Shown piece after piece: positions 4,168 through 53,212 of a stretch of DNA of 64,000 bases. The position numbers and the translations under genes are program-made. The stretch is from Roseobacter litoralis Och 149 (lineage in GTDB: Bacteria > Pseudomonadota > Alphaproteobacteria > Rhodobacterales > Rhodobacteraceae): NCBI RefSeq assembly GCF_000154785.2, contig NC_015730.1, positions 1,736,001 to 1,800,000 of the forward strand, written 5' to 3'. The notes under the pieces were generated by a model. That model worked only from the letters and a program-made list of their open reading frames with translations. It was not told the DNA's origin and ran no database searches. How positions within the stretch are numbered: position 1 is the first letter of the stretch; each line of letters starts with the position of its first letter.

Positions 4168-4430
4168 TGTGCACTGCATGTGCAACGTGAAATCGCTTTC
4201 TGTCGTGCGTTCGGCGGTTATGTGGATTTGGTTGGGCCGAAGCGCGTTGGATATGGACCGTCCCAAGGATACCACTAACTCTGGCACGGGAAACAGTAAT
4301 GCGTCCCGTGCCGCGCCCATCAAAAGGCCAGTGATTTGAATGTCGGCTTGGGGCACGGGCGGTCGCACGCCTTTCTTACCGCTCCCCGATCGCATCATGT
4401 TGGGCGCACGGTCCGGTAAACAGTGAAGAG
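4168..4430 (+). repeat. Composite dispersed repeat, copy 1
   Basis: The middle block 4168-4250 begins TTGTGCACTGCATGTGCAAC and ends in AGCGCGTTGG. It matches blocks at 33251-33345, 42088-42180 and 52932-53030, with a ~10-bp internal deletion. The right block 4330-4430 (GCTTGGGGCACGGGC, CGATCGCATC, TCCGGTAAACAGTG) aligns with 42250-42372. The left block (GGGGGCTAGACCGCCCC in copy 2) is degraded or missing here. Any open frames inside are repeat-derived. Confidence 0.7.
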
Positions 4431-4584
4431 CGGGCCTAGTCTGGGTTGGACCCGAGTGTCGCACAGGAGGGACTGAGCGCCATTCCGCTGCTGCTTTTCC
4501 AATGACCGCTTTAGGTCTCCATTGCGAGGTGTCTTTGCATTGAGCCCTCTCGTATACCGTCGCAGAATCGACTATCCTCGGAGC

Positions 4585-4950
4585 ATGCCTGCAGTGCTTT
4601 CAACCTTTTGTAAGCTTCTCACACCCCTCGCATTGATTTTCGCGATGGCAGTATCAGGTTTTGCGCATAAGACGATGCAACCTTCCTTATCGCCGGGTTT
4701 TGCAGCCTACGTTGCAGCGGGTGGCTCGCTGGCAGACATCTGTAGCGGCTCAGGCGAGCAGGATGGAGCACAGGGCCAGAAGTGTGAAGCCTGCCGGTTG
4801 ATCGGGGCAGCACTGGTGCCGCGAAACTGCCATGGCATCGCTCTCAAACTATCGGATCAAACGCGCATATTCACATTTATCGCCAAGCGGTTGCATCACA
4901 CCCGTCCGCTTGACCCTGCACGCCTGACGCGCGCCCCACCCCAAGCCTGA
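4585..4950 (+). CDS. Small Cys-containing membrane/exported protein preceding the PepSY gene
   Basis: A 121-residue protein. It has an N-terminal hydrophobic segment (LLTPLALIFAMAVSGFA, about residues 10-27) that acts as a signal peptide or anchor. A soluble part follows with spaced cysteines (DICSGSG..., QKCEACRL, RNCHG) and a basic tail. This layout resembles the DUF2946-like proteins often encoded beside metal-uptake or PepSY genes. The ATG at 4585 is chosen because it starts the signal peptide; the frame is open further upstream from a TTG. It lies 64 bp ahead of the PepSY gene and is probably co-transcribed. A metal-related role is inferred from context. Confidence 0.65.
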   Translation: MPAVLSTFCKLLTPLALIFAMAVSGFAHKTMQPSLSPGFAAYVAAGGSLADICSGSGEQDGAQGQKCEACRLIGAALVPRNCHGIALKLSDQTRIFTFIAKRLHHTRPLDPARLTRAPPQA

Positions 4951-5014
4951 CCTCATCCATCAGAGTTCAATTTTTGCCCGACTTCATGCGGGCACAGAGG
5001 CTTGGAGCCAACTT

Positions 5015-6403
5015 ATGACATCGACTGACATCAATGCGCAGCCCGAGGGCAGCGCGAACAAACTCTATTTTGCAGCGTGGCGCTGGCATTTCTATGCGGG
5101 GCTTTTCGTTTTTCCGTTTCTTGCCACACTTGCGATTACCGGTATGGCGATGCTGTGGATCGCCTGGATCGATGGGCGTGACGGGGAACGCACTGTGGTC
5201 GTTCCTCAAGAAATCCTGCAGCCTGTCTCGGTGCAGGCAGAGGCGGCAGTTGCTTCTGTCCCCGACGGCACGTTGAAGCAATACGTCGCCCCGCGCACAG
5301 ATAGTGTAGCAGCCCTGTTTCGCGTAGACGCAGGTGACGACGCCATAATGGTCGCAGTCGATCCCTACACCGCGCAGGTCATTGAAACATTCCCACGCCG
5401 CAGTGGGTGGTATGACTTCGCCGACAACATCCACAGCGAATTGATGCTGGGTGTCACGGGCGACCGGATTCTGGAAACGGCAGCATCGCTGACCTTGGTC
5501 TTGATCGCCACAGGGCTTTATATGTGGTGGCCAAGAGACGCTGGTTGGCGTCGTGCATTGATCCCAAGTTTTGGCCCCGGTCGGACCTTGTGGAAATCAC
5601 TGCATGGCGTTGTCGGTATCTGGCTGTCGCTGTTCCTGGTTTTCTTCCTTATTTCGGGACTGGCCTGGGCCGGTATCTGGGGCGGTAAGATAGTGCAGGC
5701 CTGGAGCCAGTTCCCGGCTGAAAAGTGGGACAACGTGCCCTTGTCGGATGAGACCCACGCAAGCATGAACCACGACCGCCGCGAGGTACCTTGGGTGCTT
5801 GAGCAGACACCAATGCCCGCATCGGGTAGTGATGTCGGGAGTGCGGGTGTGGAAAACGGCGTCGTGACGCTTGATGCGGTGGATGCGCTTGCACGCCAGA
5901 TCGGGTTTGACGCCCGCTATCAACTCAACCTGCCGCAATCGCAAGACGGCGTTTGGACGCTCAGCCGGGATTCGATGAATACCGACAGCGCCGATCCGAT
6001 GTCAGACCGAACGGTTCATGTCGATCAGTACACCGGCAAAATACTGGCAGATGTTCGCTTCGAGGACTACTCGCTGGCAGGTAAGGCGATGGCAGTCGGT
6101 ATCGCGTTGCACATGGGCACGTTGGGATTGTGGAGCGTTCTTGCCAATTCGCTTGTCTGCTTGTCCGTCTTGTTTTTGTGCATCAGCTCCATCGTCCTTT
6201 GGTGGAAACGTCGCCCCGTCAAAGCTGGCCGTCTCGCAGCACCGCCGATGCCAAAGGAACTGCCGCTCTGGCAAGGCGCTGTCCTGGTTGGCTTGGCGGT
6301 TTCAATGGCCTTTCCTATGGCCGGTCTCGCGTTGCTGACCGTGCTCGCGATAGATGCTCTGATCTTGTCACGATTGCCCAAGCTGCGACATAGGTTGACC
6401 TGA
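5015..6403 (+). CDS. PepSY-associated transmembrane protein (PiuB-like)
   Basis: A 462-residue inner-membrane protein of the PepSY_TM family, which is linked to iron-siderophore utilisation or periplasmic reduction. The first span is at about residues 25-50 (FYAGLFVFPFLATLAITGMAMLWI). A periplasmic PepSY-type domain follows, then spans near LTLVLIATGLYMWW and IWLSLFLVFFLISGLAW. A second periplasmic section includes DRTVHVDQYTGKILADVRF, and two or more terminal spans end the protein. A GGAG ribosome site lies 7 nt before the start. The gene ends just before a strong hairpin. The exact substrate is unknown. Confidence 0.85.
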   Translation: MTSTDINAQPEGSANKLYFAAWRWHFYAGLFVFPFLATLAITGMAMLWIAWIDGRDGERTVVVPQEILQPVSVQAEAAVASVPDGTLKQYVAPRTDSVAALFRVDAGDDAIMVAVDPYTAQVIETFPRRSGWYDFADNIHSELMLGVTGDRILETAASLTLVLIATGLYMWWPRDAGWRRALIPSFGPGRTLWKSLHGVVGIWLSLFLVFFLISGLAWAGIWGGKIVQAWSQFPAEKWDNVPLSDETHASMNHDRREVPWVLEQTPMPASGSDVGSAGVENGVVTLDAVDALARQIGFDARYQLNLPQSQDGVWTLSRDSMNTDSADPMSDRTVHVDQYTGKILADVRFEDYSLAGKAMAVGIALHMGTLGLWSVLANSLVCLSVLFLCISSIVLWWKRRPVKAGRLAAPPMPKELPLWQGAVLVGLAVSMAFPMAGLALLTVLAIDALILSRLPKLRHRLT

Positions 6404-6410
6404 GCCCAAA

Positions 6411-6444
6411 GCCGGGCACCGCTCCGTCTTGAGGGGTGCCCGGC
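6411..6444 (+). terminator. Hairpin after the PepSY gene
   Basis: A 10-bp perfect stem GCCGGGCACC / GGTGCCCGGC with a 14-nt loop begins 8 bp after the stop codon. Only a short, weak T-containing tail follows (CATTCTCG). It is a probable transcription end for the PepSY operon and lies between convergent genes. Confidence 0.6.
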
Positions 6445-6636
6445 CATTCTCGTCGAAGCTGCCGTTCGAAAGATTTCGGAAATTCTGCTGTGCGGCCCGT
6501 CGAACCTGACCTTTGCCGCGTCCGCGACATTATTCGACCATCTCTGAAAATCGACAAGAGCGTTTTCGTAAAATCAAACTGTTGTGCCACCTGATTGCAA
6601 AAGCGGGTGCACCGGTCGCGGACTTTCCTCATGAGC

Positions 6637-8034
6637 TTACACCTGCATGTCGGGTGCGGTGCGTTCCAGATGAGTGCCCATTGGCGCGCCCACAGGGCTG
6701 CCGTTCTGCATGACAGTTCTTCCGCGCAGGATGGTACGCACGGGCCAGCCCGTCACCTCGAACCCCTCCCATGGTGTGTAATCAGAGCCGTGATGCAGAT
6801 CCTCCTGGCGAATGGGTTTGGTTATCGTCGGATCCCAGAGCGTTATGTCGGCATCCGCACCGACCATGATCGCCCCCTTGCGCGGATAAAGCCCGTAGAG
6901 ACGGGCGTGATTGGTGGCGGTGATCGCAGCAAAGCGTTCAAGCGACAGACGCCCTGCCACCACGCCTTCGGAAAAGAGGATCGGCAGGCGTGTCTCGACC
7001 CCCGGAATGCCGTTTGGGATATTGCGAAAACTCTTGCGGGCGCCGGGGGCATCCTTGCCCGCCGTATCGTTGAAGCGAAAAGGACAGTGGTCTGACGAAA
7101 ACAGATCAAATGTACCTTGTTCGATGCCGGCCCATATCTTCGGCCATTCATCCGCAGTACGCGGCGGGGGAGAGCAGACGTATTTCGCCCCGTCAAACCC
7201 GTCGCGATCCAGATCAGACGCAGTCAGCGTGATATACTGCGGACAGGTTTCGGCAAAAACCGTCAGTCCCCGCGCGCGGGCACGCACGATCTCCTCGGTC
7301 GCCTCGCCGTTGGAAACGTGCACGATGGTCAGCGGCACGCCCGCGATTTCGGCCAATGATATGGCGCGATGGGTCGCTTCACGCTCCACCGGGACGGGCC
7401 GCGTCGTTGCATGATGGTAGGGGCTGGTTTCACCTTTGCGCTCAGCCCGGTCGCGCAGGAATTCAATGGCGTCTTCGTTTTCGGCGTGGACCATGACCAT
7501 GGCATTCTGTTCCTTTGCCACCGCCATGACTTCGAGGATCTGGCGATCTGACAGGGCAAGGCCCGCATAGGTCATGAAAACCTTGAAACTGGTATAGCCG
7601 GCCTGGATCAGCGCGGGCAGGTCCTGACCTAGCGTGACGGGGTCGGTTTGCTTGACGATCAGGTGAAAGGACACGTCGGTCATGCAGTTGCCTTCTGCCT
7701 TCTTGCGGTAGGCCGCCACTGCCTCGCGCAGGGTTTGGCCATCCTCCGGCAGGCAGAACGGCAGGATGGTCGTGTTGCCGCCGCAAGCTGCCGCGCGGGT
7801 GCCCGAGATAAAATCATCGGCCATCTCAATCCCCGGGCCTGAGGGTTGCGAGATATGCACATGGCTGTCGATCCCGCCGGGCAGGGCGATCAGGCCTGTG
7901 GCGTCGATCACCTCTGTGCCCGTCAACCCGCTGCCAAGGGTTGCGATCTGCCCTTGCGTGATGCCGATGTCGCATATTGTGGTCCCGCTCGCAGTGACGA
8001 CGCGGGCCCCGGTGATGACGGTGTCATGGGTCAT
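6637..8034 (-). CDS. Dihydropyrimidinase/D-hydantoinase-type cyclic amidohydrolase
   Basis: A 465-residue metal-dependent hydrolase that should open hydantoin, dihydropyrimidine or allantoin-type rings. It shows the metal ligands HVH in GGIDSHVHISQP, a probable carboxylated lysine in SFKVFMTYAG, histidines in MVHAENED and TIVHVSNGEA, and the SSDHCPF motif shared by hydantoinases. The start at 8034 overlaps the racemase stop (ATGA); the frame extends upstream through the racemase but that is not coding. It is the last gene of the operon importer-amidase-racemase-hydantoinase. The exact ring substrate cannot be assigned. Confidence 0.93.
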   Translation of the reverse strand: MTHDTVITGARVVTASGTTICDIGITQGQIATLGSGLTGTEVIDATGLIALPGGIDSHVHISQPSGPGIEMADDFISGTRAAACGGNTTILPFCLPEDGQTLREAVAAYRKKAEGNCMTDVSFHLIVKQTDPVTLGQDLPALIQAGYTSFKVFMTYAGLALSDRQILEVMAVAKEQNAMVMVHAENEDAIEFLRDRAERKGETSPYHHATTRPVPVEREATHRAISLAEIAGVPLTIVHVSNGEATEEIVRARARGLTVFAETCPQYITLTASDLDRDGFDGAKYVCSPPPRTADEWPKIWAGIEQGTFDLFSSDHCPFRFNDTAGKDAPGARKSFRNIPNGIPGVETRLPILFSEGVVAGRLSLERFAAITATNHARLYGLYPRKGAIMVGADADITLWDPTITKPIRQEDLHHGSDYTPWEGFEVTGWPVRTILRGRTVMQNGSPVGAPMGTHLERTAPDMQV

Positions 8035-8774
8035 GTTTTTTCTCCGGCGATCACGGCAGTCAGCTCTGTGCCCAACCCGGTTGAGGTCTTGTGCAAGGGG
8101 CGGTTTGTGCGATTGTCGTAGCTGGGCGCAAGGCGCAGCAGCGCCAAAGCCTGCAAGGTCGCCGCCGCAATGGGGTCGACCAAAATACCCGGCGCATCCC
8201 ACGCGATCACAGGAGCCAGTCCGGCCAGGGGCGCGCCGCCCATGATCACCACGTCCGCACCATCAAGTGCTACGGCGTCACGCGCCAGATCGATCAGGTC
8301 CTGCCTGAGTGCAGTTGCAACATTCTCGAGCGTATCCGGCGCTGTTACGGGGCACCGTACCCCTGTAAAACGGGCGCCCAACCCGGTCTGGTGCACGCAA
8401 TCGGAGTACCAGCGCGACATGTGAGGCGAGAACGTCACGACCGAAAAACGCTCTCCGAGCATCGCGGCAGACATGACTGCGGCCTCGGCCATACCGACGA
8501 TGGGCAGATCAAACAGTTCGCGTGCCGCTGTCAGACCGGGATCACCAAAGGCTGCGATGATGACCGCGTCCACATCGCTTTGGTGACTGGCAATGGTATC
8601 AAGCACCGCCGCGCCCGCAATCTGGGCCTCTGCGCGCGAGGAGATATAGGGAAAGCCTGTGCGGGCCGTGACGGGGACGATCTCGGCCTGCTGGCTGGCG
8701 ATCTGCCGTGCGACCGTGGTCATCGCCTCTGTCATGCTTTGCGTTGTATTCGGATTGATCAGCAACAGGCGCAT
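8031..8774 (-). CDS. Aspartate/glutamate/hydantoin racemase family protein
   Basis: A 247-residue protein starting MRLLLINPNTTQSMT, the usual N-terminus of hydantoin racemases. The cofactor-independent cysteine-pair fold is expected. An Ala-rich AFGDPGLTAARELFD segment is present, along with MGGAPLAGLAP near the C-terminus. The usual first catalytic cysteine appears to be replaced by Ala (AAFGDPG), while GVRCPVTAPD holds a cysteine elsewhere, so racemase chemistry needs confirming. It lies between the amidase and the hydantoinase, with a 1-bp gap and an ATGA overlap respectively. Confidence 0.85.
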   Translation of the reverse strand: MRLLLINPNTTQSMTEAMTTVARQIASQQAEIVPVTARTGFPYISSRAEAQIAGAAVLDTIASHQSDVDAVIIAAFGDPGLTAARELFDLPIVGMAEAAVMSAAMLGERFSVVTFSPHMSRWYSDCVHQTGLGARFTGVRCPVTAPDTLENVATALRQDLIDLARDAVALDGADVVIMGGAPLAGLAPVIAWDAPGILVDPIAAATLQALALLRLAPSYDNRTNRPLHKTSTGLGTELTAVIAGEKT

Positions 8775-8775
8775 G

Positions 8776-10113
8776 TCAGGCGATCTCCTTCAGAACCGGT
8801 TCCAGCCGCCCTGCGAGGGCAATCAGTTCTGCGTCATGGCCCGCGCGTGCGATCAGTTGCAGGCCAAGCGGTCGCCCTTCGCCATCCGTGCCACAGGGGA
8901 GGGATAGGGCCGGAACACCAGCATGGTTGATCTGCGGCGTGAAGGCGGCATGGTCCCGGGGTCCTGCAGGTTTGCCACCGATCCGGGTCGGGGCGTCTTG
9001 CGTGGCGGGCCATGCCGCACAGGGTGTCGTCGGGGTGGCAATCACGCCGTAGCGATCCAGTGCAGCCCGCAGGGTTTCGCGCATCTGGTGCGAAATCTGG
9101 TGCGCCCCGGCCACGTCAACCCCGGTGAATGACAGGCCTGTTTCGATTTGTCCGGCGATCGCGGGGTCGAACAGTTCTGGTGTTTCCCGCCAGATATCGC
9201 CGTATAAATCCGCAAGACCTGCGCACTGAAGCGGCAGGATGCTATGTCCCTTGATGGTCCCGGGCCAGTCAATCTGCGCTTGCGTAACCGAGACGCCCGC
9301 GCTCTCAAGCACCCCAAGCACTTTGTCAAAATTTGCCGCCACATCTCGATCAAGTGCTTGGCCCGTGCCGAAATCCGATGAGGCGGCGATCTCCAGCATC
9401 GGGGCCGGCACAGGTTCCAGCCCGGCGAGGCTCTGCATGGCGAGGCTGATGTCCTCCATCCGGCGCGCGATGGGGCAAATGACTGAGATGCCCCAGACCG
9501 GCTCATCATGGCATGGTCCGTAGGGGATCAGATCCTGCATCGGTTTGAAACCGCACAGACCCGTATGGGCAGGCGGGCGGCGCGACGAACCACCCGCATC
9601 CGTGCCAAGCGCGAGCGGGACAATCCCTGCTGCGACCGCGGCGACGGACCCGCCCGAAGACCCGCCGGGCGTCAGGTCCGGGTTGACCGGGTTGCGCGTG
9701 ATCCCCTGCAGCGGGGAGTTGGTCGCCCCTTTGCAGGCGAATTCGGAACAGGTGCTGATCCCGATGATGACGGCACCTGCCACGCGCAGGCGTCTCACCG
9801 CTTCGGCATCCTGCGGTGCGATGAAATCGGCAAACAGCCTTGAGCCTTGCGCGCAGCGCAGCCCTGCGACCCAGATATTGTCTTTTATCAGCACAGGCAC
9901 GCCGGCTAGCTGCATGGTCTCTCCGGTTTGCAGCCTTTTGGATACATGCTCTGCCTCAGTAAGGGCGTGGGGATTGATCTGGCAGATAGCATTGATTGCC
10001 GGGTTGCGGTTTTCGGCCCGCGCAAGCGCTTCGCTCACAAGTGTCTTTGGCGTGACTGCGCCGGTTTGAACTGCCGCAACAAGCTGCGAGATAGGACCGT
10101 CGAGAGGGCTCAT
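8776..10113 (-). CDS. Amidase (amidase-signature family)
   Basis: A 445-residue serine hydrolase of the AS family. The Ser-cisSer-Lys triad is visible: lysine in GVPVLIKDN, the Ser-rich TPGGSSGGSVAAVAAG, and the nucleophile region GTDAGGSSRRPP (usual form GGSIRxPA). It hydrolyses an amide or carbamoyl bond, perhaps the open-chain product of the hydantoinase. The start MSPLDGPISQL at 10113 is preferred over an in-frame upstream GTG/ATG at 10161 because the family begins there. It follows the permease gene after 120 bp with no clear terminator. Confidence 0.9.
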   Translation of the reverse strand: MSPLDGPISQLVAAVQTGAVTPKTLVSEALARAENRNPAINAICQINPHALTEAEHVSKRLQTGETMQLAGVPVLIKDNIWVAGLRCAQGSRLFADFIAPQDAEAVRRLRVAGAVIIGISTCSEFACKGATNSPLQGITRNPVNPDLTPGGSSGGSVAAVAAGIVPLALGTDAGGSSRRPPAHTGLCGFKPMQDLIPYGPCHDEPVWGISVICPIARRMEDISLAMQSLAGLEPVPAPMLEIAASSDFGTGQALDRDVAANFDKVLGVLESAGVSVTQAQIDWPGTIKGHSILPLQCAGLADLYGDIWRETPELFDPAIAGQIETGLSFTGVDVAGAHQISHQMRETLRAALDRYGVIATPTTPCAAWPATQDAPTRIGGKPAGPRDHAAFTPQINHAGVPALSLPCGTDGEGRPLGLQLIARAGHDAELIALAGRLEPVLKEIA

Positions 10114-10233
10114 GACCGCATACCTTCGTACTGCGCCCCACCGTTGGCGGAAGCGATCCAAGTATTTTCATAACGGCAGCAGGCGGGCATATTCATAAGA
10201 GTGTCTGTACCATTTCATCAGTATCCATTGTCT

Positions 10234-11034
10234 TCATCCCTGGATCATCCTGTTCAGGCCAACAGTCCGGGAGCCGATGATCAGCACGATACAGGCCAAC
10301 AGGATCAGCCCTGAAGAGATCGCCGCAAGGGACGGGTCCGGTTGTTCTTCGAGGTATTGCAGCATCTTGATCGGCAGTGTCTTGTTGCGCGCATCCGTGA
10401 GGAAAATCGATATCGGGTAGTTGTCCATCGACGCGAGGAAGGCAAACAATCCACCAGTGAGATAGGCGGGCGCCAGATTGGGCACCAGCACTTGCAGGAT
10501 TGCGCGCGGATAGCTCAGGCCAAGGGTTCGTGCGGCATCGACAAGGCTGAAATCGAAGGCCGCCATCGAGGCCAGAAGTGTGCGCATCACGAAGGGCAGG
10601 GTGATGACGATATGACCCAGCAGCAGCGACCAATAGGCGTCCCGCAGGCCAATCTCTCGAAAGAACTGCAGCAATGCAACACCGACCACCAGCCCCGGCA
10701 TCATCAGGGGCGAAACCGTAAAGGTGGCAATCGCCTCGCGTCCCTGAAACCGCCCGCGCGCAACAGCGATGGCGGCCAGCGTCCCAAGCACGAGCGAGAT
10801 CATGGTCGAGACGACCGCAAGGTTGAGCGACAGCGCCACGGCGTCCCACAGCCCGAGGCGACGCTCCAGCGACTGATACCAACGCAGCGACCATTCAGGT
10901 GGCGGCAGCGTGTAGACGGCGGAGGAGGTAAAAGACGCCGCAAGGGTAATGACAATCGGCAACATCAGGAAAAAGACACAGCCCAGGGCGATAATCCAGC
11001 TCAGGCTGAGGGCAAGGCGGTCCGTTCCAGTCAT
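10234..11034 (-). CDS. Polyamine-type ABC transporter permease (PotC-like)
   Basis: A 266-residue inner-membrane permease with about six spans. It carries the conserved EAA-type loop (VDAARTLGLSYPRAILQVLVP) and the FLASMDNYPISIFL segment typical of PotC/YdcV proteins. It pairs with the permease at 11031-11861 and overlaps it by ATGA. In this operon the importer most likely brings in the substrate for the downstream amidase and hydantoinase. Confidence 0.92.
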   Translation of the reverse strand: MTGTDRLALSLSWIIALGCVFFLMLPIVITLAASFTSSAVYTLPPPEWSLRWYQSLERRLGLWDAVALSLNLAVVSTMISLVLGTLAAIAVARGRFQGREAIATFTVSPLMMPGLVVGVALLQFFREIGLRDAYWSLLLGHIVITLPFVMRTLLASMAAFDFSLVDAARTLGLSYPRAILQVLVPNLAPAYLTGGLFAFLASMDNYPISIFLTDARNKTLPIKMLQYLEEQPDPSLAAISSGLILLACIVLIIGSRTVGLNRMIQG

Positions 11035-11861
11035 TGCCGTGCCCCCAGACGGTTCGCAAGCCAGCTTGACCCCAGAACCACCGAGATCGCGATAACCAGC
11101 AGGATTGAAGATATCGTGGCCCCAAGTGCTTCATTGCGCAGGTAGAGAAACGAGCGCGCGGTGAGCATGGACAGGGTTTGCTGCCTTTCCCCCACGATGA
11201 GCGATGGGATCACATACATCGAAACGGCGAGGCTGAAGGTGAAGGCGGATCCCGCGACCACGCCGGGCAGGCTGAGCGGCAGAGTGACGTTCATGAAGCG
11301 AAAGACCGGTGTCGCCCCCAACGACGCCGCAGCCTCCGGCAGGCGGCTGTCCATCTGACGCAACACCGCGTAGATCGGCAACACCATGAAAGGCAGGAAT
11401 ACATTCGCAGCACCAATCACAAGCGCTGTTTCAGTGAAAAGCATGCGGATCGGTGCCTCCGTGATGCCTAGTGACATCAACGTGTCATTCAGTACGCCGC
11501 GCGTGCGAAAAAGGATCGTCCATGCAAAGGCTTTGACGACAACGCCGACAGACATCGGCAGCACCATCGCCACCAGAAACACGGACAGCCAGAACCCCTT
11601 TACCCGCGCCATGATGATCGCGGTGGGATAGGCGATGATCAGCGCCAGACCCGTGGTCAGCAGGGCCACGCGCAGGGTGCGCCACAGCACGTTCAGATTA
11701 TACTCATCGCTGAAAAAAGTGACGTATTCCGCCACGGAAAACTGACCGTCGATCTGGAACGACTTGAGCAGCAGCATAAAAAGCGGCAGCGCATATATGA
11801 TTGCCAGAAAGCTCAGGCCGGGCAGCGCGAGAAGCCCGATACGTTCGGCTCGGCCCGTCAT
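11031..11861 (-). CDS. Polyamine-type ABC transporter permease (PotB-like)
   Basis: A 276-residue permease with the PotB-type layout: an N-terminal span (LLALPGLSFLAIIYALPLFMLLLKSF) and then the EAA loop (EAAASLGATPVFRFMNVTLPLSLPG). The start MTGRAERIG at 11861 overlaps the ATPase stop by ATGA; the frame stays open upstream but over the ATPase gene. It forms the transport channel with the 10234-11034 permease. Confidence 0.92.
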   Translation of the reverse strand: MTGRAERIGLLALPGLSFLAIIYALPLFMLLLKSFQIDGQFSVAEYVTFFSDEYNLNVLWRTLRVALLTTGLALIIAYPTAIIMARVKGFWLSVFLVAMVLPMSVGVVVKAFAWTILFRTRGVLNDTLMSLGITEAPIRMLFTETALVIGAANVFLPFMVLPIYAVLRQMDSRLPEAAASLGATPVFRFMNVTLPLSLPGVVAGSAFTFSLAVSMYVIPSLIVGERQQTLSMLTARSFLYLRNEALGATISSILLVIAISVVLGSSWLANRLGARQ

Positions 11862-44052: not shown

Positions 44053-45069
44053 TCAGAATTGCACAAGGGTCTTGCCGAAATGACCACCCGTGCGGAGATG
44101 TTCCATGGCGGGTTTCAGGTTTTCGAAGGCAAATGTTTCACCCAAGGCGGGACGCAGGCTGTGTTGCGCCATCGCGCGCAGCATCGCCGTGAACCCGTCG
44201 CGATGGCCTACTGTCACGCCTTGCAAGCGCACCTGACGGGCCACGATGGGGCCCAATGACGCTTCGATATTCAATCCTGACAGCACGCCGATCATCGACA
44301 GCGTCCCGCCCGGACGGACCGCGCGCAGGGACAAGGGCAAAGTCTTTGCACCGCCCAGTTCGATAATGTTGTCATAGCCGCCTCTGTCTGCCGTGATCTG
44401 ACGACTGGCGCGCGCCCAATCCTCTGTTGTGCGGTAGTTGATCGTGGCATCTGCACCCATCTTGCTCACGCGTTCCAGTTTGTCATCGCTCGAGGAAATC
44501 ACGGTTACATGTGCGCCCTGCATCTTTGCAAAGGCCAAGGCAAACAGTGCGACGCTGCCGGTGCCCTGCACCAAAATCTTGTCGCCCGCTTGCGTTTGTC
44601 CATGGGTGACAATCGCGCTCCAGGCGGTCAGGGCAGCGCAAGGCAAAGTCGCGGCTTCGGCGTCCGAAAGGTAGTCGGGTACTTTGACCACACCGTCAGC
44701 AGAGAGGCAGACACGGTCAGCCATGACCCCATCAAGCGGGCCACCCAAGGCTGACGAAAACCGTTCTGGCGTAGGCTCCCCACTGGTCCAGTTCTGGAAG
44801 TATGTGGGGCACACAAGGTCACCTGTCGCGACGCGAGTTACATCGGCACCGACCTCAATGACTTCGCCAACACCGTCTGACACCGGGATCAATGGCAGCT
44901 CGCCCGTCGCTCGTCCATAACCGCGTTCGGGTACGATAATATCACGGGCGTTCAGCGAGGCCATGCGCATCGCCACGATCACCTGACCGGGGCCACATAC
45001 CGGGTCAGGTCGCTGTGAAAGTTTGAGATTGTCAAATCCCCAGTCACCTTCGATCTGGAATACACGCAT
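44053..45069 (-). CDS. MDR-superfamily NAD(P)-dependent oxidoreductase
   Basis: A 338-residue medium-chain dehydrogenase/reductase. It has the GroES-like domain (about 1-130, LIPVSDGVGEVIEVGADVTRV) and a Rossmann domain with ILVQGTGSVALFALAFAKMQGA. The usual structural and catalytic zinc cysteines are absent, so it is likely a zinc-free quinone- or enoyl-type reductase. It lies 3 bp after the acyl-CoA dehydrogenase gene. Confidence 0.9.
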   Translation of the reverse strand: MRVFQIEGDWGFDNLKLSQRPDPVCGPGQVIVAMRMASLNARDIIVPERGYGRATGELPLIPVSDGVGEVIEVGADVTRVATGDLVCPTYFQNWTSGEPTPERFSSALGGPLDGVMADRVCLSADGVVKVPDYLSDAEAATLPCAALTAWSAIVTHGQTQAGDKILVQGTGSVALFALAFAKMQGAHVTVISSSDDKLERVSKMGADATINYRTTEDWARASRQITADRGGYDNIIELGGAKTLPLSLRAVRPGGTLSMIGVLSGLNIEASLGPIVARQVRLQGVTVGHRDGFTAMLRAMAQHSLRPALGETFAFENLKPAMEHLRTGGHFGKTLVQF

Positions 45070-45072
45070 GGT

Positions 45073-46197: not shown

Positions 46198-47153
46198 CTC
46201 TTGGGGCGTCCCCATTTGGCCAGTAAATCACTTGTCACTCCAACGATGCCGCGCGGCATGAAGATGGTCGCAAGCACAAGCACCAGGCCATACAGGATCA
46301 GCCGGAAGCTATCGGCAAAGCGCAGGTACTCCGGCAGGAATACGACGAAGAATGCGCCGATGATTGGCCCTGCAATCGTGCCCGATCCGCCCACGATGAC
46401 GGCAAGGATCGCATCAAGCGACTGGGCCACGCCAAAAATCTCGGGGTTGATGAAGCTCTGATAGTGGGCATAAAGCGCACCCGCCAAACCCCCGAACATG
46501 GCCGAGATCACAAAGGCGAATAGTTTGTATTTCCAAGCCGCAATACCGATGGCTCCGACGAGATCCTCGTTCTGACGGATCGCGATCAGCGTTTGTCCGA
46601 TGCGCGAGCGGATGATGAGGGCCGCAAGCGTCGTCATCAACACGGCAATGATCAGGACAAAATAATAATAAACCTCACGGTCGCGCCAGTTGAACATTCC
46701 GTTGTTATCGCCCGGTTTGGGAATTCCTGTAATGCCCGCCTCGCCTTGGGTCAGTTGGTGAAAGTTCATCAGAACGATGAAGATCACCATGTTGAACGCA
46801 AGGGTAACAATCGCAAAGTAATGCCCTTTGACACGCAAACTGGGGTAGCCTGTCAGCAGTGCAAAGAACGCGGTGACGAAGGGTGCCAGTGTGATGGTCA
46901 GCCAGACGGGCAGATCAAAGTGGATGCCCATAAGCGCCGTGGAATAGGCCCCGATCCCCATGAAGCCCGCCTGCACAATAGAAACATAGCCGGTGTAGCC
47001 TTGGATCAGGTTCTGTCCTTGCGCCGCGATCACCCAAATCAGGGCAAGCACGCTGAGATGCAGGTAGTATTTCACAGCAATGAACTGCGGAAGCAGAATA
47101 AAACCCGCCAGTGCTACTGCGTAGAAAATCGCTGTTCGGTTCAGGGTCATCAT
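46194..47153 (-). CDS. livM: Branched-chain amino acid-type ABC permease LivM
   Basis: A 319-residue permease with about ten spans and LivM hallmarks GYTGYVSIVQAGFMGIGAY, LRVKGHYFAIVTLAF, RNEDLVGAIGI-like RQNEDLVGAIGI and VGGSGTIAGPIIGAFFVV. It overlaps livH by ATGA and the acyl-CoA dehydrogenase by ATGA. The HAAT-class importer here probably takes up an organic acid rather than an amino acid, given the downstream ligase. Confidence 0.94.
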   Translation of the reverse strand: MMTLNRTAIFYAVALAGFILLPQFIAVKYYLHLSVLALIWVIAAQGQNLIQGYTGYVSIVQAGFMGIGAYSTALMGIHFDLPVWLTITLAPFVTAFFALLTGYPSLRVKGHYFAIVTLAFNMVIFIVLMNFHQLTQGEAGITGIPKPGDNNGMFNWRDREVYYYFVLIIAVLMTTLAALIIRSRIGQTLIAIRQNEDLVGAIGIAAWKYKLFAFVISAMFGGLAGALYAHYQSFINPEIFGVAQSLDAILAVIVGGSGTIAGPIIGAFFVVFLPEYLRFADSFRLILYGLVLVLATIFMPRGIVGVTSDLLAKWGRPKR

Positions 47154-48007
47154 GCTTTTCCCATCAGGCCTTGGGGGCGGAACAAGAGCACGCCAATCAT
47201 CACCACAAAAGCGATCACGTCCTTGTAAGCGGAGGAGATGAAGCCCGCGGCCAGTGCCTCGGTGATGCCGAGTACAAGGCCACCGACCACCGCGCCGGGG
47301 ATTGAGCCCAAGCCGCCAAGGATCAGCACTGCAAAGCCCTTCACCACCAATCCTTCACCGATGCCAGGTGCTATGGCGAACAGTGAGCCGACCATGACAC
47401 CTGCGCAAACACCAAGCGCGGTCGAAATCGCAAAGACGACGAGCGGTATTGTGTTCACGTTCACGCCCATCAGGATCGCCGCGTCGCGGTTTTCTGCGAC
47501 CGCGCGGATCGCCTGGCCGGTTTTAGTTTTCTCCACGAACAGCGTCATGGCGATGATCAGCAGGGCGGCGGCGAGGATAACGTAAAGCCGCAGCTCTGGA
47601 ATCGTAACGCCGCCAACGTTGAAGACACGCGACAGATCGGTTGGAATCACGACTTGTTCGTGGCCGAAGAATTCAAGGTTCAACCCTTCAACCATCATCG
47701 TCAGGCCCAGTGCCACGATAAAGGCGTTGATGTGATTGGCGTTCCGGACCGGCCTGTAGGCCAGCAACTCGATCAAGACGCCAAGGACGAGACCGACAAT
47801 GAGTGCGACAAGGATCGCAAAAAGAAGAGGAAAACCCCAACTGGTCACAAAGAAGAAGGTAAGATAGCCGCCAAACATCGACACCGAGCCATGGGCGAAA
47901 TGGGCGATCCCAAGGATACCGAAGACCGTGGTTAGGCCCAGTGCGATCAGCACATAGACGCCACCGATGGCCACGCCATTGATAATTTGCTGAATGACTT
48001 CAACCAT
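47150..48007 (-). CDS. livH: Branched-chain amino acid-type ABC permease LivH
   Basis: A 285-residue permease with LivH features: IINGVAIGGVYVLIALGLTTVFG, LAYRPVRNANHINAFIVALG, AVAENRDAAILMGVNV and LGGLGSIPGAVVGGLVLGI. The start MVEVIQQIING at 48007 is the family N-terminus; open frame above it covers the hairpin and is not coding. Confidence 0.94.
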   Translation of the reverse strand: MVEVIQQIINGVAIGGVYVLIALGLTTVFGILGIAHFAHGSVSMFGGYLTFFFVTSWGFPLLFAILVALIVGLVLGVLIELLAYRPVRNANHINAFIVALGLTMMVEGLNLEFFGHEQVVIPTDLSRVFNVGGVTIPELRLYVILAAALLIIAMTLFVEKTKTGQAIRAVAENRDAAILMGVNVNTIPLVVFAISTALGVCAGVMVGSLFAIAPGIGEGLVVKGFAVLILGGLGSIPGAVVGGLVLGITEALAAGFISSAYKDVIAFVVMIGVLLFRPQGLMGKA

Positions 48008-48035
48008 GTCCGGTCCTACACATAAGAGGAAAAAG

Positions 48036-48062
48036 GGGGCACAGGCACATCGCCCATGCCCC
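48036..48062 (-). terminator. Hairpin between livK-type gene and livH
   Basis: On the minus strand the stem GGGGCA-TG-GGC / GCC-TG-TGCCCC (with two G-U pairs) is followed by CTTTTTCC. It is a good intrinsic-terminator shape placed inside the operon. It may reduce read-through from the binding-protein gene to the permeases. Confidence 0.72.
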
Positions 48063-48074
48063 TTCAGGAAGAAA

Positions 48075-49274
48075 TCAGTCGATTGTGCTGAGGAAGGCCG
48101 AATAGGCGGTCGCGTCAGATGGCAGATCCTGCACAAACACCCAATTTCCGCTTTGCCATTGGAAGGCACCGTTTGATGTATAGGCCTGACCGTTCACGTC
48201 GAACATCTTGCCGTCAACCGGCAGGTATTGCATCACCACTTCGTCTGGCACAGCCAGTCCGCGCAGCGCTGCGGCCACGGCGGCAGTATCATCCACTGTG
48301 CCCGCAGCTTCGATTGCGTTTTTCAAAGCATAGGTCTGGTCATAGGCGTAGGGAGAGCTGGGGGACGGCGCGATCCCGAATTCAGCGGAGTAATTCGCAT
48401 GATACGCCTTGCCATTCTCGGATGCCGACAGCAGCGTCAGCTCTGTCGGGCGCAGATCCCAGACACCTTCCATCTGCTCGGACGTTGCAACGCGCAAAAA
48501 CTGCTCTTCACTGCCCGAGGTGAAGCCATACCGCGGCACATCAATGCCCAGTTCAACCGCCTGACGGTAGATGAAGGCCGCCGGCTCAACATAGCCAACC
48601 ACGAGGATCGCATCAGGCTCTTGTCCACGGATCTTGGTTAATTGCGGAGACATATCGCGGTCTTTGAGACCAAACGCCTCGCGGCTTACAATCTCGCCAC
48701 CGGCCTTGTTCAACTCTTTCTCAAAAGCGTCCACATAGCTGGCATAAAACCCCACATCGAGGGCACCCAGAACAGCGACCCGTTTATGACCTTTCTCAGC
48801 GACAAACGTACCTGCGGCTGCCCCGGTGTAGTCCGCTGGCGGGCGCGTGCGCGTGAGGTTTGGAATTTCGCGCGTGGTGATAGAACGTTCCGCCGCATTG
48901 CCCACTAACATTACCGCGTCTTCGTTCTCGATAAAGGATGCAACAGCGCCGGTCGCACCGGAGCAGCAAAACCCGAGGATGTATTTCACGCCGTCGCGGT
49001 CGATCAGCTTGCGCACCGCGTTGGAAGCTTCTGTCGGGTTGGCTTTGTCATCATAGGCGATGACGTTGAGCATGTAGGTGTCGTCGCCCACTTTTATGCC
49101 GCCGGCTGCGTTGATCTCTTTCGCAGCGAGGTTAACGGCGTTGGCTTGCGGCAGGCCGTATACTGCACCCCCGCCAGTCAGGGCGTCGCTTACCCCGATA
49201 TCAAGTGTCTTGTCTGCGGCAAAGGCGGCGGTGGCCGTCAATGCGAATGCAGCGGTTATGGCTGTCAGTCTCAT
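48075..49274 (-). CDS. HAAT-family periplasmic substrate-binding protein (LivK-like)
   Basis: A 399-residue type I periplasmic binding protein. It has a signal peptide (about residues 1-19, ending AFA-A), then LDIGVSDALTGGGAVYGLPQANAVNLAAKEINAAGGI, FCCSGATGAVASF and GALDVGFYASYVDAFEKEL. It binds the imported acid or amino acid for LivHM. It lies between livF and livH and is followed by a terminator-like hairpin. Confidence 0.93.
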   Translation of the reverse strand: MRLTAITAAFALTATAAFAADKTLDIGVSDALTGGGAVYGLPQANAVNLAAKEINAAGGIKVGDDTYMLNVIAYDDKANPTEASNAVRKLIDRDGVKYILGFCCSGATGAVASFIENEDAVMLVGNAAERSITTREIPNLTRTRPPADYTGAAAGTFVAEKGHKRVAVLGALDVGFYASYVDAFEKELNKAGGEIVSREAFGLKDRDMSPQLTKIRGQEPDAILVVGYVEPAAFIYRQAVELGIDVPRYGFTSGSEEQFLRVATSEQMEGVWDLRPTELTLLSASENGKAYHANYSAEFGIAPSPSSPYAYDQTYALKNAIEAAGTVDDTAAVAAALRGLAVPDEVVMQYLPVDGKMFDVNGQAYTSNGAFQWQSGNWVFVQDLPSDATAYSAFLSTID

Positions 49275-49316
49275 GTGTGTCTCCTCCCAGAAACGTTAAA
49301 GTCCCAAACGTTGATC

Positions 49317-50024
49317 TCAGTGGCCCAGATATGCCTTTGCGACATCCGGGTGTGATTGCAGTTCCGCGCCCGTGCCGCTCAGCACGATCTCTCCGGCCTC
49401 AAACAAATAGGCGCGATCCGCGAGGCGTAGCGCCATGGCAGAGTTCTGTTCGACCAGCAGGATAGTCTTGCCCATCTCTTTGATCCGTTTGATGGTTGCG
49501 CCAACCTCGGCCACGATTTTTGGGGCCAGCCCCAGCGATGGCTCGTCAAAGATGCACAGCTTGGGGCGGGCCATCAAAGCACGCCCAATGGCCAGCATCT
49601 CCTGTTCTCCGCCTGAAAGTGTCCCTGCCGCTTGGGTCGAGCGATCCCGCAGAATCGGAAACATATCCATCATCTCGTCGATATCGCTGGTTTGCTCGGC
49701 GTCGGTGCGGGTGTAGGCCCCCATGCGCAGGTTCTGCAGAGTCGTCATTTGGGGAAAGACCTGCCGGCCCTCAGGACACATGGTAATGCCTGCCTTGACA
49801 ATCGCATGGCCACTTTGATTGGTAATATCGCGGCCTTCAAACGTGATAGTACCAGCGCTAGCCGGCACAAGCCCGCAGATAGCCTTGAGCGTCGAGGACT
49901 TGCCCGCGCCATTGGCCCCGATCAGGGCAACACACTCACCCTCACCAACTTCAATATCAATGCCGTGGATGACTTCAATCGGGCCATAGCTGACGCGCAG
50001 GTTTGAAACGGCCAGCATGCTCAT
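49317..50024 (-). CDS. livF: HAAT ABC transporter ATP-binding protein LivF
   Basis: A 235-residue ATPase with Walker A GANGAGKSS, signature LSGGEQEMLAIGRALM and Walker B LCIFDEPSLGL; the switch region has VEQNS, as usual for LivF. It overlaps livG by ATGA and precedes the binding-protein gene. Confidence 0.94.
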   Translation of the reverse strand: MSMLAVSNLRVSYGPIEVIHGIDIEVGEGECVALIGANGAGKSSTLKAICGLVPASAGTITFEGRDITNQSGHAIVKAGITMCPEGRQVFPQMTTLQNLRMGAYTRTDAEQTSDIDEMMDMFPILRDRSTQAAGTLSGGEQEMLAIGRALMARPKLCIFDEPSLGLAPKIVAEVGATIKRIKEMGKTILLVEQNSAMALRLADRAYLFEAGEIVLSGTGAELQSHPDVAKAYLGH

Positions 50025-50788
50025 GCTGCCTCTCCAAGGTAGGCGTCAATGACCACCGGATTGTTGCGGATCTCTTCAGGTGTGCCTTCAGCAATCTTCT
50101 GGCCAAAGTTCAACACGACGATGCGGTCACTGACATCCATGATCAGCGCCATGTGGTGCTCGATTACCAGCACCGAGACACCAAGGGCGCGGATGGATTT
50201 AATCAAATCACTCAGCGTTTTACGTTCGTGCGATACAAGACCGGCAGCGGGTTCATCGAGCAAGAGTACTTTGGGACCGGAGGCCAAAGCCGTTGCTATC
50301 ATCAAGAACCGCTGCTGCGCAGAGCTGATCGTGCCGACGCGCTTTTGCTCGACCTCCTTCAGCCCGGTGATGTCAAGAATATGGGCGACGCGCTTTTCCA
50401 GCGCACTATCTTCGACCGGGTTGCGACCGATGCCAAAGACCGAAGACAACGGATGCGACGTTCGGGTGACGTTGCTGCCCAGCATGATCTGTTCGCGCAC
50501 CGTGAATTCGCCGAATGTGCTGGCAGTCTGGAACGTGCGCGCCAGACCCTGCGCAACGCGCGCATACTCAGGCAAAGCATCGATTTGCACATCGCCGAGC
50601 ACAATTTTGCCAGAAGTGATGGCAAAGATGCCTGCGAGGCTGTTAACGGTTGTAGATTTTCCAGAGCCATTGGGTCCGATAAGTCCAAGGATTTCAGCCT
50701 CTCGCACCTCGAAAGACAAGTCGCGGATGGCGTGAACACCACCAAACGATTTGCACAGTGTATCCACCTTGAGAACAGGCGCTGTCAT
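50021..50788 (-). CDS. livG: HAAT ABC transporter ATP-binding protein LivG
   Basis: A 255-residue ATPase with Walker A GPNGSGKST, a signature-like SSAQQRFLMIATAL (degenerate compared with LSGG) and Walker B KVLLLDEPAAGL, with H-loop VIEHHMALIM. The start MTAPVLKVD at 50788 has GGGGG upstream. It is the first gene of the operon, divergent from the LysR gene. Confidence 0.93.
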   Translation of the reverse strand: MTAPVLKVDTLCKSFGGVHAIRDLSFEVREAEILGLIGPNGSGKSTTVNSLAGIFAITSGKIVLGDVQIDALPEYARVAQGLARTFQTASTFGEFTVREQIMLGSNVTRTSHPLSSVFGIGRNPVEDSALEKRVAHILDITGLKEVEQKRVGTISSAQQRFLMIATALASGPKVLLLDEPAAGLVSHERKTLSDLIKSIRALGVSVLVIEHHMALIMDVSDRIVVLNFGQKIAEGTPEEIRNNPVVIDAYLGEAA

Positions 50789-50855
50789 GAAACCCCCTTC
50801 CGCACGTCGATTGCGGTTCTTTGACGGTAGCGAGGTTAATGAGTCGCTCAAAATT

Positions 50856-50888
50856 CAAAGATTTAGTCTTTGTATCTAAAATTTAGAT
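50856..50888. promoter_or_regulatory. Two adjacent inverted repeats in the livG/lysR divergent spacer
   Basis: CAAAGA-N5-TCTTTG at 50856-50872 is followed directly by ATCTAAA-A-TTTAGAT at 50874-50888. Both lie in the 139-bp divergent spacer and fit a LysR recognition and activation site pair (T-N11-A type spacing). The regulator at 50928-51830 is the likely binder. Confidence 0.55.
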
Positions 50889-50927
50889 GCATATGATTTC
50901 ACGGATTAGTTGAAACAAAGGCGGCAC

Positions 50928-51830
50928 ATGGTAGTTAAAATTAGAAATATAACATCAATTCAAGTGTTTAATGTCGCATGTCAGACTGGAAACGTAACGC
51001 GGGCCGCTCAGTTACTTAACATAAGCCAAAGCTCTGTGAGCTACCACATCAAAAAATTGGAAACTGACCTGGGGTGTTCCTTGTTTCGACGAACCAAGAA
51101 GGGGTTGGAACTGACTGAGGAAGGCACCTCGTTGGCGATCCACGTTGAGAAAGGCTTGAGCATGATCCAGACGGGGCTGGAACGGGTCGCGAACTTGGCG
51201 GGATCAGTCAAAGTCGCGCTGCTGCCTATGTTCTCCAGCCGGTGGCTTTCGTCTCGTCTGGGCAGTCTGATGGAGCTGCATCCGGATTTACAATTGTCGA
51301 TGCACAACCACAACAACAGTTTTGCAAGAATGCAAAATCCGTCCAGCTTTGCTGATCTTGGTATCCAATGGGGCAAGGGTAATTGGAGTGGCTTTGACGT
51401 CCATCGCCTGTGGCCCGAAAAACTGGCCGTGGTGTGCAGCCCGGCGTATTTGGCGGCACATCCAATCAGTCAACCAATGGATTTGTACAAGTGTAACTTG
51501 CTCCATGTTGACGACAGCCGAATGTGGGACGAATGGCTGGCGCTGAACGCATTAACCACAAACGCTGGACAGGCTCAAATGATGTTGGAAGATCGGCACT
51601 TTCAACTGAGTTCGACAATCAACGGGCTGGGGGTGTCGCTATTTGCCTCATGGTTGGTGGAGGAAGAACTTAGAAGTGGTGTTCTGGTGAACCCTTTTGG
51701 GCGCAACTTTGAAACATCCTTTGCGTACCACCTGATCGTGCCCAAGGGCGAAAAGCCGTCCAAGCCCGTCGAACAGTTTTGTGATTGGTTGCTTCAAATG
51801 CGCGGATCGCAAGCAGAAGGGACATCTTAA
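50928..51830 (+). CDS. LysR-family transcriptional regulator
   Basis: A 300-residue regulator. The winged helix is IRNITSIQVFNVACQTGNVTRAAQLLNISQSSVSYHIKKLETDLGCSLF (about residues 4-53). The effector domain is GcvA-like (PMFSSRWLSSRLGSLMELHPDLQLS, NPFGRNFETSFAYHLIVPKG). The ATG at 50928 has AAAGG upstream and is preferred to a TTG at 50910. It is divergent from the HAAT operon and is followed by the CATCGGG array. Confidence 0.92.
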   Translation: MVVKIRNITSIQVFNVACQTGNVTRAAQLLNISQSSVSYHIKKLETDLGCSLFRRTKKGLELTEEGTSLAIHVEKGLSMIQTGLERVANLAGSVKVALLPMFSSRWLSSRLGSLMELHPDLQLSMHNHNNSFARMQNPSSFADLGIQWGKGNWSGFDVHRLWPEKLAVVCSPAYLAAHPISQPMDLYKCNLLHVDDSRMWDEWLALNALTTNAGQAQMMLEDRHFQLSSTINGLGVSLFASWLVEEELRSGVLVNPFGRNFETSFAYHLIVPKGEKPSKPVEQFCDWLLQMRGSQAEGTS

Positions 51831-51878
51831 ATTGCATGTCCGCATTTTTCGGTTTGAGGCTTTTGAAGCAGGGTGCAG

Positions 51879-51962
51879 CATCGGGCATCGGGCATCGGGC
51901 ATCGGGCATCGGGCATCGGGCATCGGGCATCGGGCATCGGGCATCGGGCATCGGGCACCGGG
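51879..51962 (+). repeat. Tandem heptamer array, 11 x CATCGGG plus CACCGGG
   Basis: Twelve contiguous 7-bp units: eleven identical CATCGGG and a terminal CACCGGG. A 7-bp period shifts frame each unit, so all three frames stay open and create meaningless open frames (e.g. GIGHRAS or CPMPDAR repeats). It lies 49 bp after the LysR stop. It is not a CRISPR, since there are no spacers. The copy number is likely to vary by slippage. Confidence 0.95.
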
Positions 51963-52189
51963 TTTCGCTTCGCCATGCGCCGCTGTGCCCTCAAGGAGTC
52001 AGCGTCAGCAATCGCTGCGAATTTTAAAAAGGCCGGCCGACGAAGAAGCGCACCGCGATGCATGTTGCATGAAAAAATAAGTGAGCAGTGTGCAAGTAAA
52101 GTGCCCTTGAGAGGCCGTATCCTTGTCGGCGGTTTGCGAAGTCCATAACTGTGTGCGGTTGTCGTTTGAGGAGGAGCTCACTATCGCTG

Positions 52190-52270
52190 ACCCACCCAAT
52201 CGCCGCCTTTTAATGGCCCTCGCCCTTGGGGGCTAGACCGCCCCAATGTCGCGCTCTGCCGGGGTAGATT
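52190..52270 (+). repeat. Partial composite repeat (left block with internal deletion)
   Basis: ACCCACCCAATCGCCGCC to GGGGGCTAGACCGCCCCAAT matches the left block of copy 2. It then jumps to GTCGCGCTCTGCCGGGG, corresponding to the segment after the missing core. So about 45 bp, including the GTGCACTATGTGTGCAAC core, is deleted. Confidence 0.7.
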
Positions 52271-52740
52271 GAACACTTGGTTTTCCGCGGAGTCAGGCGA
52301 ATGAAGACTGGGGTTAGGCGACGCCGACAAGCGATGTATCGACCACGTTTTTCGGGCCTATCCTTTCGGTGGAATTGGTGGGGTCAAGAGGAAGAATTCT
52401 GCTTTGCTTGCAACGCTGACCGCTACTTATGGCTTTAGGTTTTTCAGCTTTCGCGGTCTACCAGTCAGGTAGCCGGGTTTCAAAATACCTTGTAAGCCTA
52501 AACGACATCAGTCCCTTTATCTTGGATTTCAAAGCAAGGATGGTTGAAATCTTGGCGGGGCTGCCGTCTTGCGCATTGTAACGGATCACCTCTTTGGTCT
52601 CTGTGATAGCCCATCGCATAGGTTAGCAATCTTTGTGCGGGCTATGTGCACACGAGCATTTTATCTTTCCCATAGCGTTTCTCCGACTGAGTCGAGCGAT
52701 AGAAAAGGTGGCTCAGACTAAAAACCAACCCAATTATCGC
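52271..52740. other. Spacer, largely non-coding
   Basis: 470 bp between the partial repeat and copy 4. The only frame of note is a 53-codon minus-strand frame at 52458-52619, listed separately with low confidence. No terminator or promoter was recognised. Confidence 0.4.
52458..52619 (-). CDS. Possible small protein or gene fragment, 53 residues
   Basis: An open frame MRWAITETKEVIRYNAQDG... ending LTRYFETRLPDW. Composition looks protein-like (mixed charged and hydrophobic residues, no repeats), but there is no clear ribosome site and a stop lies just upstream. It may be a remnant of a larger gene. I do not recognise it. Confidence 0.2.
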   Translation of the reverse strand: MRWAITETKEVIRYNAQDGSPAKISTILALKSKIKGLMSFRLTRYFETRLPDW

Positions 52741-53212
52741 CATCCGCATGTCTTAACTCCTGGGGGACTAGACTGCCCCAATTCGTGTGCAGTATGGTCC
52801 CAAGAACCAGCCCGTGGACCATAGGAGAACCAAGAATGCTCGACAACGCAGCCACTGCGGCGGCGAGATTATTCTGCGCGCCCATGATGGATTGGACTGG
52901 TTCATTTTTAAATTCAATAACTTAAACGGCGTCGTGTGCACTATGTGTGCAACGTGAAGTCGCCTTCTGGCGTGCCCTACCGTACGTTTGGCAGTTAAGC
53001 GGATTTGGCAAGATTTAAGCGCGTTGGAACCGGAAGTTCCTTGGGACCTTAACTCATCAGCGACACGATTTAACATAGCCATTTATACTGTGCCACGCCG
53101 TTTAAGAATTGAGTGAGTTGAAGGTCGCACTAGGGTTGGGACGACTCTAGCCCTTGCGCGTCGGTCTCGGATTACGTCTCGATTGTTGATTGATCCGGTC
53201 ACCATTGAAAGC
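52741..53212 (+). repeat. Composite dispersed repeat, copy 4 (interrupted)
   Basis: The left block 52741-52796 (CTGGGGGACTAGACTGCCCC) and core/right parts 52932-53212 are separated by about 149 bp. The sequence TCGTGTGCA[G/C]TATG occurs on both sides of the interruption (52783-52796 and 52932-52945), like a target duplication. The middle block ends near 53030 (AAGCGCGTTGG) and the right block is at 53110-53212 (GTGAGTTGAAGGTCGCACTA, CGGTCTCGGATTACG, TGATCCGGTCACC). Confidence 0.78.
52797..52901 (+). pseudogene. dusA: dusA 5' fragment (tRNA-dihydrouridine synthase A)
   Basis: Inside repeat copy 4, AGGAG and an ATG at 52836 begin a frame that reads ARLFCAPMMDWTG, the conserved DusA N-terminal motif (usual form APMMDWTD). 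Similarity stops near 52901 and the frame ends at 52925. Only ~22 codons plus the leader are present. The 5' end of dusA is a known target of a class of phage and island integrases, so this may be an attachment-site scar. Confidence 0.7.

Follow-up and report, generated by a model that had tools for sequence, protein, structure and literature searches.

What is the sequence that recurs between unrelated catabolic operons in Roseobacter litoralis Och 149, and what placed it there? The question is raised by a 64,000-nucleotide stretch of contig NC_015730.1 (positions 1,736,001 to 1,800,000; hereafter the window, in which positions are counted from its first letter). An original prediction made from the letters alone had described a repeat of three colinear blocks, its copies in one orientation and confined to spacers between operons, and had offered a small nonautonomous mobile element, a recombination site used to assemble the modules, or a structured RNA as possible explanations. 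Our analyses indicate that the repeat is, very probably, the decayed attachment-site junction of islands inserted serially into the 5' end of the gene dusA. The suggestion of a recombination site therefore came close, and the site is best read as the attachment-site (att) junction of dusA-targeting islands.

The similarity between the blocks is real, but they do not form a single unit; rather, two separate sequences are involved. One, referred to here as RE (for right end; the left block of the original prediction), is the promoter plus the 5' end of dusA. The other, LE (for left end; the core plus the right block), forms the left end of integrative islands whose insertion site is the dusA codons PMMDWT. 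That a significant repeat recurs in the window was borne out by a repeat search, by blastn within the genome (the copies near 33 and 42 kb are 78% identical over 169 bp, E 7.7e-32), and by nhmmer profiles for LE and RE that were built without window sequence and then run on the window; these profiles are not fully independent of it, because their members were first collected using window queries. With them we detected four LE and five RE copies, all on the + strand and all in spacers between clusters of open reading frames (ORFs), as had been claimed. Up to E 1, the other RE matches were 52930-52956 (E 0.0043), which is a motif shared with LE, 53944-53903 on the - strand (0.068) and 15377-15402 (0.28), and the sole extra LE match was 36860-36772 on the - strand (0.58). 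The reversed window gave no RE match and one LE match at E 0.5. The genome as a whole holds six LE copies, two of them outside the window, at 2912 and 4072 kb. The copies and the elements of the junction are as follows (E values from nhmmer, with window-free profiles unless stated).

4164..4399, + strand: LE of module 1, one 10-bp unit lost (E 1.4e-56 with a profile containing it; window-free match 4164-4361, E 5.9e-38)
33190..33273, + strand: RE (dusA promoter region), truncated at the shared motif and joined to LE (E 5.5e-16; alignments)
33248..33492, + strand: LE of module 2, fused to RE (match 33248-33444, E 2.6e-37)
42019..42107, + strand: RE, likewise truncated at the shared motif and joined to LE (E 2.9e-19)
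42084..42336, + strand: LE of module 3, fused to RE (match 42084-42299, E 3.8e-39)
52183..52247, + strand: RE remnant (E 4.8e-6), the LE part after it being non-significant (1.1 bits)
52721..52897, + strand: nearly complete RE, with dusA promoter region, leader, start codon and first 21 codons (E 1.4e-41)
52836..52925, + strand: truncated dusA start, with 21 DusA-like residues, 8 foreign residues and a stop at 52923-52925 (translation)
52884..52897, + strand: att core ATGATGGATTGGAC (pattern search; letters checked)
52912..52924, + strand: IHF-like site, one mismatch to the consensus (letters checked)
52931..53181, + strand: LE of module 5 (match 52931-53137, E 5.3e-34)
52935..52953, + strand: LE motif TGTGCACTATGTGTGCAAC, 49 bp after GATGGATTGGAC (alignment; letters checked)
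63632..63683, + strand: weak RE trace, probably the right end of module 5 (E 3.6e-4)

Colinearity holds at 33 and 42 kb, where RE and LE are fused, but not at 52.7-53.2 kb, where they stand apart with the junction between them. No left block is present in the 4.17-kb copy, where neither RE nor an att core is recognizable to the left of LE, and the right block is weak at 33 kb. The deleted copy placed at 52190-52270 is the RE remnant, and its LE part did not hold up; the trace noted at 63642 survives as the weak RE match, which a narrower profile missed at E 0.1.

The identity of RE can be read directly from relatives. With the 33-kb copy as query, blastn returned matches in 9 of 59 genomes, the query's own counted, and RE stands upstream of an intact dusA in four genomes (G003, G001, G083 and G245). 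In G003 and G001 the left block comes directly before an intact ORF containing ...APMMDWTDRHCR...; searched with TIGR00742 (DusA), the ORF of G003 scored above the curated cut-off and that of G001 just below it. The DusA identity of the start at 52836 rests on this intact counterpart, and the replacement dusA 5' end that marks such islands is thus present in the window as the truncated start at 52836-52925. In G083 and G245, RE of the same type feeds an intact dusA, with LE at the opposite end. Immediately upstream of the ribosome-binding site, the RE leader (52796-52824) contains an inverted repeat (ATGGTCC / GGACCAT), which is also found in G003, G083 and other copies.

The window retains one complete junction, at 52721-53181, in which the dusA 5' end, the att core, the IHF-like site and LE follow one another. 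Exact matches to the att pattern number two in the genome, namely the one at 52884 (+ strand) and one in dusA itself (- strand), and the att repeat within the dusA 5' end is found in relatives as well. We gathered LE copies with a sequence-only model and aligned 28 distinct ones by an anchor that does not use the core. In 21 of the 28, GATGGATTGGAC (up to two mismatches) lay precisely 49 bp before the LE motif, at -49, compared with 0 of 2520 control offsets; the seven misses include the R. litoralis copy at 4072 kb, which was misplaced by the script owing to an indel. This count took in 28 of about 37 copies, and four named records may duplicate other genomes. Outside it stood the copies at 4, 33 and 42 kb and that at 4980 kb in G016 (whose lack of a core was already known), matches in G005, G007 and G010, the second copy of G017, and a copy on a Yoonia plasmid, which has the core at -49. 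Conservation starts abruptly at the core: the mean information per base rises from 0.09-0.19 (-150 to -61) through 0.43 (-60 to -51) and 1.13 (-50 to -41) to 1.55 over the ten opening bases of the motif.

Between core and motif, 13 of the 28 copies carry an IHF-like site (with at most one mismatch to the consensus, and in 11 at a single position); in 1000 shuffles the count averaged 0.65 and never exceeded 5, and because the copies are related these counts are not independent evidence of IHF binding. LE itself, conserved over ~100 bp across genera, continues as 10-bp units (TCGCCTTCTG, KCGCGCTCTG and TCGGGYGTTT), and it has gained 10 bp in one G016 copy and lost 10 bp at 4.2 kb in the window. 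These units resemble the arm-type sites of tyrosine integrases, and it may be that the motif, the IHF-like site and the units bind recombination proteins.

Family and class were scanned under stricter filters. LE is present in 14 of 296 genomes of the family and 9 of 19 of the genus; among 289 genomes drawn from the class, R. litoralis alone carried it. An exact-pattern scan returned six named records (Poseidonocella pacifica, Tateyamaria and Roseicyclus among them), all six with core-like sequence at -49. For 22 genomes with LE, dusA lies on the same contig in 9 and on a different contig in 13, and in 6 of the 9 (G016, G025, G083, G108, G196 and G245) LE is on the dusA strand and at most 150 kb upstream; G025 carries little weight here, since its contig is only 190 kb.

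Whole islands, and dusA starts displaced by them, are observed directly in these relatives. G108, G025 and G196 share the layout core, LE, cargo, integrase, dusA. In G108, with dusA at 157.3 kb, the core and LE are placed at 104.5 kb and the integrase, intact and 98% identical to that at the R. litoralis dusA, at 156-157 kb; the junction sequence is that of P. pacifica DSM 29316. The G196 layout is of the G108 type over 56 kb, with a stop within the integrase. The island of G025 spans 7.8 kb, and its integrase is a distinct one (32% identity). In G004, 101 kb separate an integrase with 47 dusA codons from a second integrase and an intact dusA downstream, and both integrases contain a stop. Four LE copies lie on the dusA strand of G016, 80-145 kb upstream provided that the contig is circular. 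Between 4962 and 5045 kb, G016 has RE of the window type at 4962, 4970, 4980, 5023 and 5044 kb together with two flanks of another type (G016c and G016d), as if several island lineages were stacked.

Two further relatives have LE and RE at dusA and an island there in which no integrase was found. At dusA in G083 lies a 2.6-kb element running from LE to RE, with a piece of an aldehyde dehydrogenase gene and a redoxin gene as cargo and no integrase detected in the 2 ORFs scanned. In G245, LE copies lie 36 and 55 kb upstream of dusA, where RE stands. The dusA-adjacent island there (769.5-805.0 kb) encodes amidohydrolases, an amidase, hydantoinases, a racemase, M20 peptidases, and TRAP and ABC transporters; Pfam detected no integrase in 28 of its 31 ORFs (non-overlapping, at least 120 residues), and tblastn with two dusA integrases found nothing in it. 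The outer island holds two integrase scraps at 819.5 kb (24 and 22 residues, E 0.001) and, among 8 ORFs scanned between 805 and 825 kb, a type I restriction system together with SNF2, EH_Signature and OmpA proteins; the gene set at 805375-818858 is reminiscent of the Zorya defence system. In both genomes, then, dusA has its newest 5' end from an island without a detected integrase, which may have acted in trans or may have been deleted later. Finally, plasmid NZ_CP151764.1 of Yoonia sp. SS1-5 carries the core and LE at 161998-162116, followed by ABC-transporter and alcohol and aldehyde dehydrogenase genes and, farther on, by a molybdoenzyme operon. This plasmid showed no significant RE (best E 0.078) and no match to either dusA integrase, although tyrosine recombinases are annotated at 152.9-154.1 and 196.1-199.3 kb.

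These observations suggest how the window may have arisen. Each island would end on the right in a substitute promoter and first codons for dusA (RE) and on the left in an arm of 100-250 bp (LE). Integration at ATGATGGATTGGAC would set the old dusA 5' end against the LE of the incoming island, and successive insertions would yield RE-core-LE, cargo, RE-core-LE, cargo, all in the orientation of dusA. Because the junction would be the boundary of the cargo, copies would never fall inside a cargo operon. Older junctions would then decay, those at 33 and 42 kb losing coding start and core by deletion between shared motifs, and a later rearrangement would have parted the array from dusA. The decay step is suggested by a motif, CGTGTGCA..TGTGTGCAAC (TGTGCA...TGTGTGCAAC), common to RE and LE: at 33 kb, at 42 kb and at 4980 kb in G016 the sequence is RE up to this motif and LE from there on, of which the simplest reading is a deletion between two direct copies. 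The RE at 52.7 kb lacks part of the motif (an 11-bp gap). Because the copies appear to be island junctions, the window may be described as island remnants arrayed in tandem, integrase-less and with catabolic cargo, presumably made by serial insertion.

Several observations weigh against this account. The att core is kept at only one window junction, having been lost at 4, 33, 42 and 52.2 kb and not being seen at 63.6 kb. PF00589 has 18 matches in the genome and none inside the window, and two dusA integrases used as queries had no match there either. Some 300 kb separate the array (1740-1800 kb, + strand) from dusA (2101 kb, - strand), whose neighbouring integrase shares 98.5% identity with that of G016. 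In G000, G004 and G171 the LE copies are not near dusA. Among 29 left flanks (the 28 aligned copies plus Yoonia), the dusA N-terminus (ARL...APMM) runs in frame up to the core in 9 and is decayed in 4 more, which favours the account; the flank is not recognizably dusA in 16, however, and 6 of these 16 (G013, G171, G332, G017, the EL129 record and the Yoonia plasmid) have another flank in common. That common flank contains a stretch resembling AAGCGGTCATT, and a short string of similar sequence is found at window position 4501 on the - strand.

The distance from dusA is likely to reflect a rearrangement that separated the two. Synteny with G016 breaks on either side of the array and near dusA: the array falls between blocks matching 4750-4753 kb and 4857-4942 kb of G016, and the dusA block is inverted relative to G016. 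The region 1655-1832 kb had no match of at least 55% identity over 100 residues in 562,563 bases of G016, and the genes upstream of dusA in G003 (19.7 kb) matched neither of the R. litoralis regions examined.

LE copies far from dusA (at 2912 and 4072 kb in R. litoralis, in G004 and G171, and on the Yoonia plasmid), together with the non-dusA flank common to six copies, would also be expected of a dispersed nonautonomous transposon, of the type of a miniature inverted-repeat transposable element, that prefers spacers between operons. We consider this improbable. The copies are direct repeats only, and none of the 25 inverted pairs listed, of 28, links two copies as inverted terminal repeats would; four of the six LE copies in the genome lie within one 50-kb stretch, on one strand; and conservation sets in abruptly at the dusA att core, which has its fixed distance left of LE in 21 of the 28 aligned copies, including several that lie far from dusA. 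Still less probable is a promoter or operator region common to the catabolic operons and held by selection. The confinement to spacers, the fact that RE is a real promoter region (that of dusA) and the conservation of LE would suit such an element, but the flanking cargo has no fixed direction, different modules and different species carry unrelated cargo, and the constant neighbour of LE is the att core. A structured RNA gene, suggested by a conserved intergenic element of ~100-250 bp with a short hairpin at the motif, is hardly credible given no match at Rfam gathering thresholds, no compensatory change in the 7 pairs that RNAalifold predicted from 15 copies, and a protein-coding dusA start at one end of the unit.

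Junctions of dusA-targeting islands thus being the preferred reading, the catabolic operons between them look like a stack of captured islands, with the following cargo.

4400..33189, no strand assigned: module 1 cargo (putative island), amidohydrolase, amidase-like, ABC-transporter and BtpA-family genes
33493..42018, no strand assigned: module 2 cargo (putative island), LysR, desaturase-family, ABC-transporter and arginase-family genes (ORF list)
42337..52182, no strand assigned: module 3 cargo (putative island), AMP-binding enzyme, acyl-CoA dehydrogenase, branched-chain amino-acid ABC transporter and LysR genes
53182..63631, no strand assigned: module 5 cargo (putative island), MHYT-LytTR regulator gene and Cox/xanthine-dehydrogenase-like operon

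In NCBIfam searches 10 window proteins gave matches below curated cut-offs, or (3 of the 10) none; in Pfam scans, 20 of 20 proteins had domains over the cut-off. Compared with loci from the other genomes, 5 of 49 window proteins reached at least 55% identity over 100 residues, all five in module 1 and all matching the G245 dusA island (60.7-86.1% identity; dusA itself is 68% identical between the two genomes), in a different gene order. Compared with a cis-mobilizable element (CIME), which lacks an integrase but keeps functional att sites at either end, module 5 has an intact core at its left end and, at its right, the weak trace without a core. Because the window holds no integrase, we file its modules as remnants or relatives of dusA islands, not as complete ones; the island at the R. 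litoralis dusA and those of relatives do carry a dusA-associated integrase. A phage-type integrase fragment lies 21 kb right of the window (G000 1821138-1821539, - strand), and a tandem run of the 7-mer GCATCGG occupies 51864-51975, between module 3 and the RE remnant at 52.2 kb. We rejected local operon duplication as the source of the repeat, the coding similarities listed by the repeat search falling in ABC-transporter-type genes and being read as paralogy, and also a phage origin, there being no match in viral contigs (one exact pattern) or in phage records (blastn).

Islands at dusA that replace its start have been described (Farrugia et al. 2015, PMC4482086). As described there, they resemble the elements studied here in targeting the dusA 5' end, supplying a new promoter and start and leaving the old start at the far end, and in their direct att repeats and Rci-like tyrosine integrase, which lies beside dusA in relatives and in R. 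litoralis. Unlike them, the window modules are integrase-less, stacked and mostly without an att core, carry catabolic operons, share the LE arm and lie away from dusA. The tandem dusA elements IEVpaBan1a/1b of Vibrio, whose excision is reported to require RdfN (PMC8409611), likewise lie side by side; in that report they carry integrases and number two, whereas the window holds several modules. The ssrA islands of Dehalococcoides, explained by cis-mobilizable elements and accretion (PMC3146451), also form a stack at a housekeeping gene, with direct repeats of the gene end and some members without integration genes; that system, as reported, uses a serine recombinase and the 3' end of ssrA, and its array remains beside the gene. 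In the search listings and passages that we read, neither a dusA array of several integrase-less modules nor a shared arm like LE appeared. The repeat in the window is best explained by serial island integration at dusA, a known mechanism that takes a stripped, displaced form here.

A formerly unrecognized repeat thereby becomes a marker for island insertions and their direction, and offers an explanation for how a line of unrelated catabolic operons could have been assembled. It is conceivable, if rather doubtful at present, that marine Rhodobacteraceae exchange integrase-less catabolic cassettes of operon scale bounded by LE and RE, which would be moved by an integrase in trans, inserted serially at dusA, passed between species and onto plasmids, and later leave dusA as catabolic arrays. 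The signature of att core, 49 bp and LE offers a way to find dusA islands in marine bacteria, integrase-less ones included, and whether an integrase acting in trans moves such modules becomes directly testable.

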